In this document: piece by piece, positions 25,792 through 63,437 of the stretch
How the letters are laid out: each line of letters begins with the position of its first letter
How positions within the stretch are numbered: position 1 is the first letter of the stretch
Source: Planococcus halocryophilus
GTDB taxonomy: Bacteria; Bacillota; Bacilli; Bacillales_A; Planococcaceae
Direction: 5' to 3'
DNA: 64,000 nt
Assembly: GCF_001687585.2 (NCBI RefSeq)
Contig: NZ_CP016537.2
Location: 2,018,001 to 2,082,000, forward strand
Made by a program: the position numbers and the translations under genes
The notes under the pieces: generated by a model
The model's input: only the letters and a program-made list of their open reading frames with translations
Database searches by the model: none
What the model was told of the DNA's origin: nothing

Positions 25792-25926
25792 CACCTTCAC
25801 CTTCTCCCATCCAGACTATACTGTCGGCTTTGGAATCTCACCAAATCCTGCGTTTTACGGCTCGCGGGCTTATGAACAGAGTTCAATTACCGCCGGTAGG
25901 GAATTGCACCCTGCCCCGAAGATGAA
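25792..25926 (-). promoter_or_regulatory. FMN riboswitch (RFN element)
   Basis: On the minus strand the conserved RFN blocks are in order: CTTCGGGGCAGGGTG, CCCTACCGGCGGT, GCCCGCGAGCC, ATTTGGTGAGATTCC, GCCGACAGTATAGTCTGGAT and GGGAGAAGG. Spacing fits a six-helix aptamer. It sits about 140 nt upstream of ribU, with a terminator between. Confidence 0.96.
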
Positions 25927-25957
25927 TCGATATTTTGTTATGCCCTAATATTAGTAT

Positions 25958-59011: not shown

Positions 59012-59015
59012 CCTA

Positions 59016-59066
59016 TTAATACATTTTCAAGTATTGCTCGCGTTCCCATGGGTGTACAGATGTGCG
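59016..59066 (-). pseudogene. glnA: 3' end of glutamine synthetase gene (att-site fragment)
   Basis: Read on the minus strand, these codons give RTSVHPWEREQYLKMY and a stop, which matches the C-terminus of GlnA (HPWEREQY is diagnostic). Similarity stops at about 59067, where phage-like sequence begins, and the rest of glnA is not in the window. The glnA terminator follows directly. Integration into the 3' end of a gene normally rebuilds the gene at the other end of the element, so an intact glnA is expected beyond the window. Confidence 0.85.
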
Positions 59067-59067
59067 G

Positions 59068-59565
59068 ATTATATACCTGGTGTTTTTATGTGTATTTGCG
59101 TGTGACGAAGTGTTGATAAATCAATGTTCCTATAAATCTATTCTGTTTATTTGTGTTTATTTGTAGTTGGACAGTTGGGCAAAAGTTGGGCAAGTTATAA
59201 AATGCTTATTGGGCAAAAAAATATACGACTAAACGAGTTCCTACTATATATAGTAGTCGAACCTATACTCCATAAATTTGTGTAATCTTTTTATGACGTG
59301 TGCAAGTACTTAATCAGGATAAAGGTAGCTGATTCGAGCCCAGTAGGAATCATTTTTTATAACACTCCTTGAAATCTTGGTACAACAGCCTTTTATTATG
59401 TTCTTTTTGAGTAGTATGCCTAAAGTGTGTCCAAATGTATTTTAAGTTACTAAATTTTTTGATTTGATTACATGTTTTAAGCCTTGGTGGAATAATCTCT
59501 TCAGTTTATGCACGTTCATTCAGCAGTCGAGCAATGGGCTCGTTTTCTTATTTTTTAGAGTGCTA
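59068..59565. other. Gene-free att-proximal segment with TTGGGCAA direct repeats
   Basis: TTGGGCAA occurs at 59175-59182, 59186-59193 and 59209-59216 and may be integrase arm-type sites. A 20-codon minus-strand frame (59353 to 59291, MIPTGLESATFILIKYLHTS) has AAGGAGTG upstream but no other support. The rest is AT-rich with no recognisable gene. Confidence 0.4.
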
Positions 59566-60327
59566 TTAAATATTTTCTTCTTTAATTTTAAATCCCATAA
59601 ATTTATGAGATTCTATTCCTATGACAGGCGCACACCCAATTTCCGGAATTTCCTTTATAAGATCCGGAATGTGATTTATTCTTATTACCTCAATAGAGGG
59701 TGAGAGAAGATTAACAAGAATTAAATAATCAATTTTTTCTTTGTATGTATATATCCAATCTAATAGATGCTCATCAACGCTTATTCTATATGTATCAAAA
59801 ACTTCTGTAGGCTCATTTCTCCTAGAAACCGCAGTTTGCAAAATAATATCTGTATACTCAATTAGGAAAATCCTATGTGTAAATTCGGAAGTATTTTTAT
59901 CGTAACTTTCTATATGCTTAATCCAACTTTTTTTTATTGAGTTTACAATATTTAAATGTGTGTGTTTTTCAAAATTGCGACCAAACGAATGACTTACCAG
60001 TATCTCTTCTTCACTACTATCGAGATGTTTCAAGAAATTAGTTTCACTCTTTTTTTTGAAAACATATGATTCCCTTGTCTGTTTTGCACCTTTTTTATCC
60101 ACTAATGAGGAAGTGACTGCAAAGTGTTCTATGAAGCCGCTGCCGAAAACAAAATCGGGAAAATTATTATTATTAGAATTAGGCTCAGAATTATTTAACC
60201 ATTTTTTCAATTCAGTGAAATGTTCTTTAGATAATCCAAAACAATCTTTTTCCTTCATCTCATTTTTCACAAAATCTAAGCACCTTTGTTCAGTATCATT
60301 CTGAGACTCTCGATTTTTACTCATCAT
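59566..60327 (-). CDS. Prophage cargo protein of unknown function, possible nuclease-like fold
   Basis: A 253-residue soluble protein nearest the att site. I do not recognise a named family. The segment FPDFVFGSGFIEHFAVTSS has the spacing PD-x(8)-E of PD-(D/E)xK nucleases, but the usual Lys is replaced by Phe, so catalysis is uncertain. It also has SKEHFTELKKWLNNSEPN, a basic middle and EYTDIILQTAVSRRNEP. Start ATG 60327 follows GAGAGG. Its own promoter-like TTTAAC (60457) - 16 nt - TATAAT (60435) lies upstream. Low GC suggests transfer. Confidence 0.7.
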   Translation of the reverse strand: MMSKNRESQNDTEQRCLDFVKNEMKEKDCFGLSKEHFTELKKWLNNSEPNSNNNNFPDFVFGSGFIEHFAVTSSLVDKKGAKQTRESYVFKKKSETNFLKHLDSSEEEILVSHSFGRNFEKHTHLNIVNSIKKSWIKHIESYDKNTSEFTHRIFLIEYTDIILQTAVSRRNEPTEVFDTYRISVDEHLLDWIYTYKEKIDYLILVNLLSPSIEVIRINHIPDLIKEIPEIGCAPVIGIESHKFMGFKIKEENI

Positions 60328-60755
60328 ATACATCCTCTCTAAAGCTTACAAGTTGCTAAAAGAGTTTCTCACAATGATTAATAACGTACGTTTATAACAA
60401 GTCTGTTATTTAATAATTGATTCTAGCATAGACTATTATACTACTTAAACTAGGTAGTTAAACTATTCTTAAAATTCCAATTAGAAGTGTTCGACTTTCT
60501 CCTACAGACCGTATTTTACGTTCTTATATGCTACCCATTTATGAGCAAATATCACATACCACGACTGACTTTCGACCACTTTATCTCAAGAAGTAAAAAA
60601 CGAGTTTCTTCTATAAGTAATGTATCAGTTTGTATAATTATCGTGGTCATTGAGTGGTCAACAGCTTTGACCACTTTTTTTAAGATTGTTTAATTAGAAA
60701 ATGAATACCAAAGCGCGTATCAATTCTCTCTACTTATTTTAAATATCTCTTCTTT
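60328..60755. other. Gap between cargo genes with a promoter and a plus-strand terminator
   Basis: No protein gene is supported. The minus-strand promoter for the 253-residue protein is at 60435-60462 (TATAAT, TTTAAC). A 9-bp hairpin AGTGGTCAA / TTGACCACT followed by T7 (60653-60681) is a plus-strand terminator with no plus-strand gene before it, so a short untranslated RNA reading rightwards is possible. Confidence 0.4.
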
Positions 60756-61811
60756 TTATTTTTCATTGTTCGCTGCCATCATTGCTTCTTTATGAAAATT
60801 AAACATTTCTTCCAAGGCTATTGTATAAAAATCAATAGGTACTCCCAGAGCTCCTAATACTCCTTCGAACAAAGGAGGCTTAGTCTTAATATGTCTTTCA
60901 ACTGCTTGTTGAATGTTCACAAAAAACTCAAAGGTCCCACGTGGATTATCTATGAAGAAATATATAATTCCAATAAGAAAGGCTGCAAAGTCATTCCTTC
61001 CATTACCTCTATTATGATCCAACTTAGTTAACCCAAAGATAGTATGTAACTCCTCTAAATATGGAAGTTCGATATTAGTGTAATGATTGTACATTCTTCC
61101 ACCATGGGCTGCCCAGTTCCGGAATTTATTAAACAATTCCATAACTTTAAAGAAGAACTCTTTGTCTTGCTCTGTCGGATTCTTTCCAATAATATTTTTA
61201 ATGACTTCTGTTTTCACACTATCTTTTGATAACTTATACATAATAACTAACTCGCCGAAAGTCAAATCCTTTACTAAAATCCAAGGCGGAATATTATTAT
61301 AGGTTTCCTTATAATAGAGCAACGGTTGTATTTCCGGATTACCAACTTTCCTATTAATTCGCTTAAATAAGTTCTCACGTTCAGTTCTTCCGTTTGTTTG
61401 CTTTCTTCCCCATTTATAATTTTTTATATCGAGATAATCTTCCTGCTTCTCACCGTAGACCAACGCCATACTGTAAGCCATACTCGAATAAAAAGCACAC
61501 TCGATATCTAAAGTCATTTCTAAAATACTTTGACGTAATTTTCGGTCGAATTCATATAATTCTCGTATGTCTTCAAAAGAAGTCCCTCTTATAAACTGGT
61601 CTTCATCTGTTTTTTTTTCTTTTGGCATAAGAAACATATCTTTGTAACCGTTTATCAAATCATAATAGCTAGTTCGGAGAAGCTGTTTTTCGGCTTTTCT
61701 TAAATCGCTTACTACCAATCCTCGCGAAATCAGCTTTTCAACTTGCAAGTTTACAGGGATAAAAGGCTTGTCTCCATTAAAATCATCCATAACTTCAACT
61801 CGTTTCAGCAT
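60756..61811 (-). CDS. Abi_2 / AbiF-type abortive infection protein (HEPN)
   Basis: Abi_2 proteins (AbiD/AbiF) abort phage growth; many HEPN proteins are RNases. The 351 residues from ATG 61811 show the family features: KPFIPVNLQVEKLISRGL, a YYDLINGYKDMF segment, DIECAFYSSMAYSMA, PPWILVKDLTFGELV and the HEPN motif R-N-W-A-A-H at about residues 231-236 (FRNWAAHGGRMYN). The open frame runs on to 61958 but would swallow a terminator and promoter, so the ATG at 61811 (or 61790) is used. Shine-Dalgarno is weak, suggesting low translation. A small RNA gene precedes it. Confidence 0.9.
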   Translation of the reverse strand: MLKRVEVMDDFNGDKPFIPVNLQVEKLISRGLVVSDLRKAEKQLLRTSYYDLINGYKDMFLMPKEKKTDEDQFIRGTSFEDIRELYEFDRKLRQSILEMTLDIECAFYSSMAYSMALVYGEKQEDYLDIKNYKWGRKQTNGRTERENLFKRINRKVGNPEIQPLLYYKETYNNIPPWILVKDLTFGELVIMYKLSKDSVKTEVIKNIIGKNPTEQDKEFFFKVMELFNKFRNWAAHGGRMYNHYTNIELPYLEELHTIFGLTKLDHNRGNGRNDFAAFLIGIIYFFIDNPRGTFEFFVNIQQAVERHIKTKPPLFEGVLGALGVPIDFYTIALEEMFNFHKEAMMAANNEK

Positions 61812-61854
61812 GTTTGTGTAGCTTCTATCATACTCTATAATGAAAAAAAATGGC

Positions 61855-61884
61855 AGAAAAAAACCTCTAACAGAGTTAGAGGTT
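61855..61884 (-). terminator. Terminator of the AbiF-associated RNA
   Basis: AACCTCTAAC / GTTAGAGGTT, 10-bp perfect stem with loop TCT and U7, 44 nt upstream of the HEPN gene start. Read-through would be needed to express the HEPN gene from the RNA promoter. Confidence 0.88.
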
Positions 61885-61920
61885 TTTCCTAGCCAAATTC
61901 GATGGCCTACTTGGTTTGTT
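61856..61920 (-). ncRNA. Predicted about 65-nt structured RNA upstream of the Abi_2 gene (abiF-RNA-like)
   Basis: The predicted transcript starts near 61920, 7 nt after the -10 element, and ends at the U-run near 61856. Two hairpins fit: the first at 61890-61909 (UAGGCCA with UGGCUA, one bulged G, loop UCGAAUU) and the second is the terminator. A CCAA near the 5' end (61911-61914) could pair alternatively with the UUGG of hairpin 1. It encodes no ORF. A conserved structured abiF RNA is known upstream of such genes; I have not compared it with the covariance model. Confidence 0.6.
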
Positions 61921-61926
61921 AACCTT

Positions 61927-61955
61927 ATAATAAACTCTTCAACTTGAAGAGTCAA
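61927..61955 (-). promoter_or_regulatory. Promoter of the AbiF-associated RNA with a palindromic operator
   Basis: TTGACT (61950-61955) and TATTAT (61927-61932) are spaced by exactly 17 nt on the minus strand, a strong sigma-A promoter. A perfect 19-bp palindrome ACTCTTCAAGTTGAAGAGT (61934-61952) fills the spacer and overlaps the -35, as an operator would. Confidence 0.75.
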
Positions 61956-62090
61956 CAAATTTGTGTGTCATTTTGTATCATCTTGTAACAATGTTAATAA
62001 TGAAACAGTAATTAACGCTAAAATGAAACCAGAAAATGAATGGTTTTAAAAACCGAAAATATCATTAAGTTGACTTCAAAAATGAGCCTA

Positions 62091-62453
62091 TTAATCAATC
62101 ATTTGAAGAGCTGTCAATTCATTCATTGACAACCGGTGCATTCCCGCAGGATCTTCATAGACAATTAAATTTCGATGTGCATTTAGTTCTTGAATAATCC
62201 CGATGTGATAATGAAACTTTTTGTCCTTCCACGACTCCATTTTCACCTGACATTTTCGCTGTGCAGCCAAGATCAATTCTTTCTGTAGCAGTTGCAGGTC
62301 ATATTCATCCAATTCCGGTTTTGCATCATACTTATCCTCATCGTACCAAGCACGTATTAAATCCACATGCTCGGTCAGCATCATTCCCTGCCACTTTATC
62401 AACCCACGGTCCTTAATGCCCCCTATTTGTTTCAAGTGTTTATTTACTCTCAC
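62091..62453 (-). CDS. YolD-like protein
   Basis: YolD-family proteins are encoded with Y-family (UvrX/YqjW, UmuC-like) DNA polymerases and are thought to be their UmuD-like partners. The 120 residues carry the family signature DRGLIKWQGMMLTEHVDLI near 15-35 and a beta-rich end (YHIGIIQELN...). The start is GTG 62453, 9 nt after GAGGAG. A perfect LexA box lies just upstream. No polymerase gene is adjacent in the window. Confidence 0.88.
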   Translation of the reverse strand: MRVNKHLKQIGGIKDRGLIKWQGMMLTEHVDLIRAWYDEDKYDAKPELDEYDLQLLQKELILAAQRKCQVKMESWKDKKFHYHIGIIQELNAHRNLIVYEDPAGMHRLSMNELTALQMID

Positions 62454-62470
62454 TCTGACCAACTCCTCAC

Positions 62471-62498
62471 TAATATAAGAACATATGTTCTTATATTA
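62471..62498. promoter_or_regulatory. 28-bp perfect palindrome with LexA box upstream of yolD
   Basis: TAATATAAGAACA, TA, TGTTCTTATATTA form a perfect palindrome. Its core GAACATATGTTC (62479-62490) is an ideal GAAC-N4-GTTC LexA site. It overlaps the probable -10 region of the yolD promoter (TTGCAC about 18 nt further upstream), so LexA should block it. Confidence 0.8.
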
Positions 62499-62534
62499 CC
62501 ATGGAATTTGAGTGTGCAATCCTGTTTGGCCAAA

Positions 62535-62572
62535 TAAAAAATCCTGCTAACCATTTTCAGATCAACAGGATT
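62535..62572 (-). terminator. Terminator after the endolysin gene
   Basis: AATCCTG / CAGGATT, 7-bp stem with a long loop and U6 on the minus strand, just after the amidase stop. Confidence 0.6.
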
Positions 62573-62576
62573 AATA

Positions 62577-63437
62577 TTATTTCTTCAATTCATTTAATAC
62601 AGCTTCGTAAACTCTAGCTGCAATGACGCCACTCTCTTCTCTTGAAGTGTTTTCTGTCGGTTTAGTTCCATCTGTGAAGCCAAGTTTTTTTGCGAGGGTT
62701 GATTGACGATCATACTCAACTTTCCATGCTGGTGTCGGTTTGTCCACTTTATGTCCCTCCTTTGGCTTTGTAACTGGATTGGGTTTTGGTGCAGCTGGTT
62801 TCACAACCGGTTTCGTAGCAACGACTAGTTTGCTATCGTCGAACTTAATGCCGTACCAATCGCAAGCCACCTTCGCTGCCACTTTACCGCAACGCATGCG
62901 GTAATCGGATGTCAACATTAATTTCCGTGCTGCATGGTTCGTGAAGAACTCCCATTCGATCAATACAAAAGGTGCTACCGTTTCACGTACCAAATAGAAG
63001 TCGGTCCAAGTGCCAGGGACGCATGGAAATAAGCCCGTTCCCCAAATCGGATAGCCTGGGAATTCTTTTTTGTATTCAGCCAGTACCATTTGAGCCAGCT
63101 TCTTCCCATTTGCTGAAGTATGCCAATAAAAAACACCAAAGCCCCGTACAGAAGAGGCTCCGGCGTTTCCGTGATGCGACATCCCAATTGAGTTTTTATC
63201 TGAACGGTACTGCGCATTATAATTAGCGATGCGACTAGCAAGTAAAACGTCTGCCCGGTTAGAAGGTTGAGCACCATAAGTTGTCAACTTCCCTTTCAAC
63301 AAGCGTTCCACTTCATCACCGACTGCTGCATTAAACGAGTGCTCGGCCATCGCCGGGACACCTCCAGCTGCCGCAATTCCTTTGGATGGTGGATAGGTAT
63401 TTGAACCGTGCCCTTTGTCATTCAATAATTTTGCCAT
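62577..63437 (-). CDS. N-acetylmuramoyl-L-alanine amidase (phage endolysin)
   Basis: The endolysin cleaves the amide bond between MurNAc and the stem peptide. The Amidase_3 fold fills about 1-195: DKGHGSN (zinc His), MAEHSFN (Glu/His region), SHHGNA (zinc His) and IEWEFFTN with the catalytic Glu. A Pro/Lys-rich linker (about 205-235) leads to a C-terminal segment KLGFTDGTKPTENTSREESG, typical of wall-binding ends of Bacillales endolysins. It has 286 residues and no signal peptide, so release relies on the holins. ATG follows GAGGGGG and overlaps the holin gene by 20 nt. Confidence 0.93.
   Translation of the reverse strand: MAKLLNDKGHGSNTYPPSKGIAAAGGVPAMAEHSFNAAVGDEVERLLKGKLTTYGAQPSNRADVLLASRIANYNAQYRSDKNSIGMSHHGNAGASSVRGFGVFYWHTSANGKKLAQMVLAEYKKEFPGYPIWGTGLFPCVPGTWTDFYLVRETVAPFVLIEWEFFTNHAARKLMLTSDYRMRCGKVAAKVACDWYGIKFDDSKLVVATKPVVKPAAPKPNPVTKPKEGHKVDKPTPAWKVEYDRQSTLAKKLGFTDGTKPTENTSREESGVIAARVYEAVLNELKK

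Follow-up and report, generated by a model that had tools for sequence, protein, structure and literature searches.

The abiF gene at one end of a prophage of Planococcus halocryophilus raises the question of whether it is a lone toxin gene or one half of a two-part system with an RNA partner. The gene was examined in a window, the whole stretch of 64,000 nucleotides (nt) analysed here (contig NZ_CP016537.2, positions 2,018,001 to 2,082,000), in which abiF occupies positions 60756..61811 of the minus strand, the strand on which its promoter, RNA, and motif features all lie. By sequence comparison, the small RNA predicted upstream of this gene belongs to a class that is distinct from the catalogued abiF RNA (Rfam RF03085) and that precedes AbiF genes related to this one in phages, satellites, and prophages of Bacillota. 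Gene and RNA very likely form a prophage-borne, type III-like RNA–HEPN toxin-antitoxin or abortive-infection module, which would work like AbiF–RCd22 of C. difficile with another RNA architecture. A first-pass annotation of the sequence had proposed an RNA paired with a HEPN toxin; of that proposal, the promoter–RNA–terminator–abiF layout was recovered, with a covarying hairpin, before many related AbiF genes, while the catalogued RNA and the first of two hairpins were not borne out.

Transcription of the RNA is predicted to start near position 61920, downstream of a promoter at 61927..61955 with the -35 hexamer TTGACT (61955-61950), a 17-nt spacer, and the -10 hexamer TATTAT (61932-61927). 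With 10/12 matching positions, this is the best sigma-70-like site in the 3.6-kb stretch scanned, in agreement with the strong promoter noted in the first-pass annotation. A single-stranded leader (61908..61920) is followed by the hairpin P1 (61891..61907), in which GGCCA (61907-61903) pairs with UGGCU (61895-61891) around a 7-nt loop, by the linker AGG (61888..61890), and by an intrinsic terminator (61855..61887). The terminator, also anticipated as strong and as standing 44 nt before abiF, is a perfect 13-base-pair (bp) inverted repeat (61859-61871 and 61875-61887) with a 3-nt loop and a subsequent run of U's, and ends 43–44 nt before ATG 61811. For the 76-nt stretch, the predicted fold was better than that of every one of 200 shuffled sequences (z -4.6). 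Of the two hairpins that had been expected before the terminator, the second, P1, is conserved; the first one predicted by RNAfold (GGUU-AACA-AACC) was rejected, as it starts upstream of the predicted RNA start and is not kept in eight close relatives, where the same region is a conserved unpaired leader.

These relatives, all with the same RNA upstream of abiF, are G126, Listeria phage HB17054, Lentibacillus, Geomicrobium, Oceanobacillus, Listeria booriae, Bacillus sp. JCM 19034, and Priestia flexa, and make up nine close loci together with the window. Their alignment consists of an AAUAAAYYAAA-like leader, P1, a short linker, and the terminator, the last being located between RNA and abiF in all nine. 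A promoter of at least 9/12 is likewise present in 9/9 loci, its -10 element ending 18 nt before the first alignment column of P1. Since sigma-70-like sites often turn up by chance (12.9 ± 3.4 expected, 17 observed), this fixed position is the real support for the promoter. In the nine-row alignment A6, which was fitted to the structure and leans towards P1, 97.0% of 135 cells pair, five pairs change on both sides (eight cells), and the covariation reaches 0.250, with slid controls not exceeding 0.078. Among 261 genomes, a model designated R1 gave two strong matches, the window (67.4 bits) and G126 (70.0 bits), both located upstream of abiF and both included in its training set; the next-best match was at 40.3 bits, and the 16 places in 15 other genomes were all at or below this value.

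The wider distribution was analysed with a total of 170 loci, namely the best 80 of 237 from genomes, the best 80 of 167 from viral sequences, the window, and nine others. A search of genome contigs with a single AbiF protein as query gave no relative, and relatives were found by an alignment-based search. A terminator was detectable in 136 of the 170 loci, giving 86 distinct upstream segments, and 43 of these segments, chosen because P1 was visible, were combined into alignment A5. On A5, RNAalifold returned P1 alone; of the 258 cells, 86.8% are paired and 68 show changes on both sides, and the covariation is 0.707 against 0.036–0.134 in slid controls. The covariation that the first-pass annotation had asked of homologous loci is thus present in both the 43-row and the nine-row alignment. 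In a check free of selection, in which all 86 segments were clustered to 71, 32 of the 71 folded better than dinucleotide shuffles at p≤0.05, where chance predicts 3.6, compared with 8 of 139 control pieces farther upstream. A promoter of at least 9/12 stands upstream of P1 in 43/43 rows of A5 against 167 of 860 shuffles, with a distance of 18–19 nt between -10 and P1 in 33 of the 43. A second model, R2, was built on A5 and run on the 89 loci outside it. Its top 19 matches (at least 18.2 bits), several of them near-copies of A5 rows, were all on the plus strand and 12–85 nt ahead of the abiF match, and matches from 18.0 bits downward scattered. In L135, the closest of these top matches, hairpin, terminator, and ATG were all present on reading; a separate pattern match, L227, was discarded as chance, being located inside an unrelated gene.

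In a tree of 157 AbiF proteins, rooted at the midpoint with a support of 94 for the deepest branch (below the 95 mark), 52 of the 55 rows labelled with P1 group on one side, which counts 72 rows in all. The five RF03085 rows, with the AbiF of RCd22 (phage phiC2) among them, together make up a single clade on the opposite side (support 100), and the smallest well-supported groups around the window, with five and seven rows (support 96 and 99), carry P1 throughout. A third layout, one internal-loop hairpin doubling as the terminator (for example CUUCGGUAUCCCGUGUGGACCGAAG), was detected by regular expression in 18 of the 157 rows, all on the side opposite the window (L105, L110, L117, L118, L134, and L142 among them). 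AbiF branches thus mostly retain an RNA type of their own. The label "NO" in the tree denotes rows left unlabelled rather than rows shown to lack an RNA; 20 such rows are on the side of the window, and 12 of them were caught by a conservative detector of P1 plus terminator. On the window's side this detector picked up 38 of 72 rows, against 1 of 288 shuffles; the corresponding figures for the opposite side were 11 of 85 and 1 of 340, so that the P1-plus-terminator layout is not confined to either half of the tree.

The protein of 351 amino acids encoded from ATG 61811 matches the Abi_2 domain with 128.5 bits (curated cut-off, 25.6) and carries the HEPN motif RNWAAH (61104..61121; R231 and H236 as counted from ATG 61811), as the first-pass annotation had read it. 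The motif is conserved in relatives, with R231, N232, and H236 invariant across 62 sequences, and together with the predicted AbiF fold it places the protein in the AbiF/AbiD (Abi_2) family; no family stood out besides 8vz6. ATG 61790 is also a plausible start, because homologs begin 1–14 residues ahead of their KPF/KVF. Between terminator and abiF lies a possible second promoter, with the -10 element TATGAT at 61827..61832 and no good -35. Hexamers resembling -10 in at least five of six positions occur in this spacer in 9/9 close loci (p 0.0005 with mononucleotide shuffles), and such a weak promoter may allow abiF to be made without read-through.

The proposed module is based on the gene, its predicted fold and catalytic motif, the RNA architecture with covariation, the association with one clade of AbiF, and the prophage context. 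Within this module, the upstream promoter would direct synthesis of an RNA of about 65 nt, composed of leader, P1, linker, and terminator. The terminator would stop most transcripts, leaving read-through or the weak second promoter to supply little abiF mRNA, and by analogy with RCd22 would keep the RNA in excess over the toxin mRNA. The HEPN ribonuclease, presumably a dimer, would be held inactive by the abundant RNA bound to it; toxicity, RNA binding, and neutralisation are here carried over from AbiF–RCd22 and PbAbiF. For the trigger and for phage defence we can only infer that, when another phage infects or the prophage is lost, RNA synthesis would stop and the RNA would run out, and that the freed AbiF would then cut cellular RNA and stop growth, perhaps to the benefit of defence against other phages or of prophage upkeep. 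The pointers to abortive infection are only the protein family and the location in a prophage.

Several observations weigh against this module. The ribosome site of abiF is weak, as already remarked in the first-pass annotation, with no clear Shine-Dalgarno sequence before ATG 61811 or ATG 61790. In the window sequence alone, as represented by an identical viral-contig copy (L144), P1 gave p 0.13 with dinucleotide and 0.044 with mononucleotide shuffles, and the window score of 11.4 is below the threshold of 13 of the conservative detector; the A5 rows, in addition, were selected for a visible P1. No repeats were found within the RNA, and the RF03085 model gave no match in window positions 60400-62600 at E≤10, so that membership in this family was rejected, and with it the connection that the first-pass annotation had drawn to the known abiF RNA. 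With this mismatch and without a repeat array, the known systems tested are not exact precedents.

The explanation that competes best, although improbable, is that the RNA is only a cis-acting leader, in which P1 and the terminator attenuate abiF transcription and do not act on the protein. The terminator standing between RNA and gene in all nine close loci suits this explanation, and RCd22 itself represses abiF in cis through termination, according to the sections of PMC12373285 on which this and the following comparisons draw. In the same account, however, RCd22, the RNA of the best-studied relative, also binds AbiFCd and relieves its toxicity in trans, with stem integrity required, and the conserved leader and P1 exceed what attenuation needs. 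Such a cis-acting leader could perhaps be a switch, the linker AGG pairing with CCU in the 5' arm of the terminator. The sequence AGG-A(4-6)-CCU is kept by eye in seven of the nine close loci, but the stem would be only 3 bp and the letters are reversed or absent in most of the wider class, so that such an antiterminator is suggestive only. Very unlikely is a locus lacking any functional RNA, with an ordinary terminator, an independent abiF promoter, and a resemblance between loci due to inheritance only; the possible second promoter and the weakness of P1 in the window alone fit it, but compensatory changes in P1 and a near-fixed promoter spacing across widely different organisms do not. That leader or loop guides AbiF to a target RNA in the manner of Cas13, of which AbiF is a proposed ancestor (PMC12373285; sections of PMC12737573), is scarcely credible, as the leader is conserved and not variable and no array or spacer was found.

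The locus of the RNA–HEPN module forms one end of a prophage in a genome of 3.42 Mb on a single contig. A 56-bp direct attachment repeat at window positions 59013-59068 has its second copy 48.7 kb apart at genome position 2125741, where it adjoins a tyrosine integrase (Pfam PF00589, 85.5 bits) and overlaps the 3' end of glnA (NCBIfam GlnA, 596.6 bits). Holin-like genes, an amidase, and a YolD-like gene precede abiF on the same strand. An identical AbiF is carried by an IMG/VR contig (L003), and one AbiF upstream region, with 164 identical letters, is shared by genome G014, Tetzosporium hominis, and a plasmid of Listeria innocua (L007, L088, L250), which argues for a mobile gene and its recent horizontal spread. 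Between abiF and the attachment repeat, a reading frame of 255 amino acids (59566-60333), with no match in Pfam and PADLOC, may be another piece of prophage cargo. The same genome holds a second Abi_2 gene, which is chromosomal (C1:765193-765819, L002), and of 45 further genomes from the genus 44 gave an AbiF match; nine of the same-genus loci were tested and gave no RNA match. Elsewhere in the window, an ordinary flavin mononucleotide (FMN) riboswitch was detected at 25795-25927 (123.8 bits).

The type of system is already known, and the RNA variant is apparently uncatalogued: the literature search gave no description of this RNA class, an earlier one being possible outside that search, in the main AbiF/Cas13 paper of Zilberzwige-Tal or the papers of Weinberg. 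We consider it rather likely that AbiF antitoxin RNAs come in a second architecture, absent from Rfam 15 and represented by this RNA: a minimal single unit (a leader of about 12 nt, a short hairpin, a linker, and a terminator) that has evolved jointly with one AbiF clade in the phages, phage satellites, and prophages of Bacillota. Such an RNA would inhibit the HEPN dimer otherwise than RF03085 RNAs do, and in the Bacillaceae/Listeria branch a weak promoter may serve the toxin alone, allowing separate control of toxin and RNA. The sole Rfam model for AbiF-associated RNA misses the RNA of the window and of the relatives tested. If the class holds, seemingly lone AbiF toxins in Gram-positive prophages and satellites would each have an RNA partner, and an antitoxin as small as this, with one hairpin and no repeats, would permit simple tests of how a HEPN nuclease is silenced by RNA.

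Among known systems, RF03085 is likewise small, structured, and encoded ahead of abiF, but its model of 37 positions has a 6-bp outer and a 3-bp inner stem around an internal loop, in contrast to the leader and P1 of the window RNA. This model gave no match in the P. halocryophilus genome at E≤0.001 under stricter filters and none in 20 loci at Rfam gathering thresholds; the latter result says little, because RCd22, with 26.6 bits under the gathering score, was also missed. RF03085 RNA was also observed apart from abiF. At L045 (1501-1972), an RNA of 38.0 bits is followed after about 40 nt by a gene for a PBECR3-type nuclease (Pfam, 67.5 bits), and RNA and nuclease may be a new RNA–toxin pair; L048 of the same genus is alike by eye, and L041, also of that genus, is similar without an open frame. 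At L043 the RNA precedes an AbiEi_4 gene (49.2 bits), and an AbiF frame lay within the fetched stretch at 4 of the 19 RF03085 places L034-L052 (L036, L037, L039, L050). The type III systems ToxIN, CptIN, and TenpIN share with the window the order of RNA, terminator, and toxin gene in one operon and orientation (PMC12373285), as the first-pass annotation had argued, but differ in their antitoxin repeat array and in a toxin of another fold than HEPN. PbAbiF–AbiFr (PDB 8vz6) was represented by a Prevotella relative (L252, 137 bits to 8vz6), in which, by eye, an internal-loop stem runs into the terminator instead of leader plus P1. AbiFCd–RCd22 of C. difficile prophages, like the window, combines a prophage lysis region, a sigma-A-type promoter, a small RNA, a terminator, and an Abi_2 HEPN gene with RxxxxH (PMC12373285), and the two AbiF proteins are 29% identical over 224 columns. 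They belong, however, to different parts of the tree, and in the sections of that source drawn on here no promoter is predicted after the C. difficile terminator, whereas the window may have one. RCd22 consists of two RF03085 motifs in 88–132 nt (PMC12373285), and the window RNA of one short hairpin in about 65 nt.
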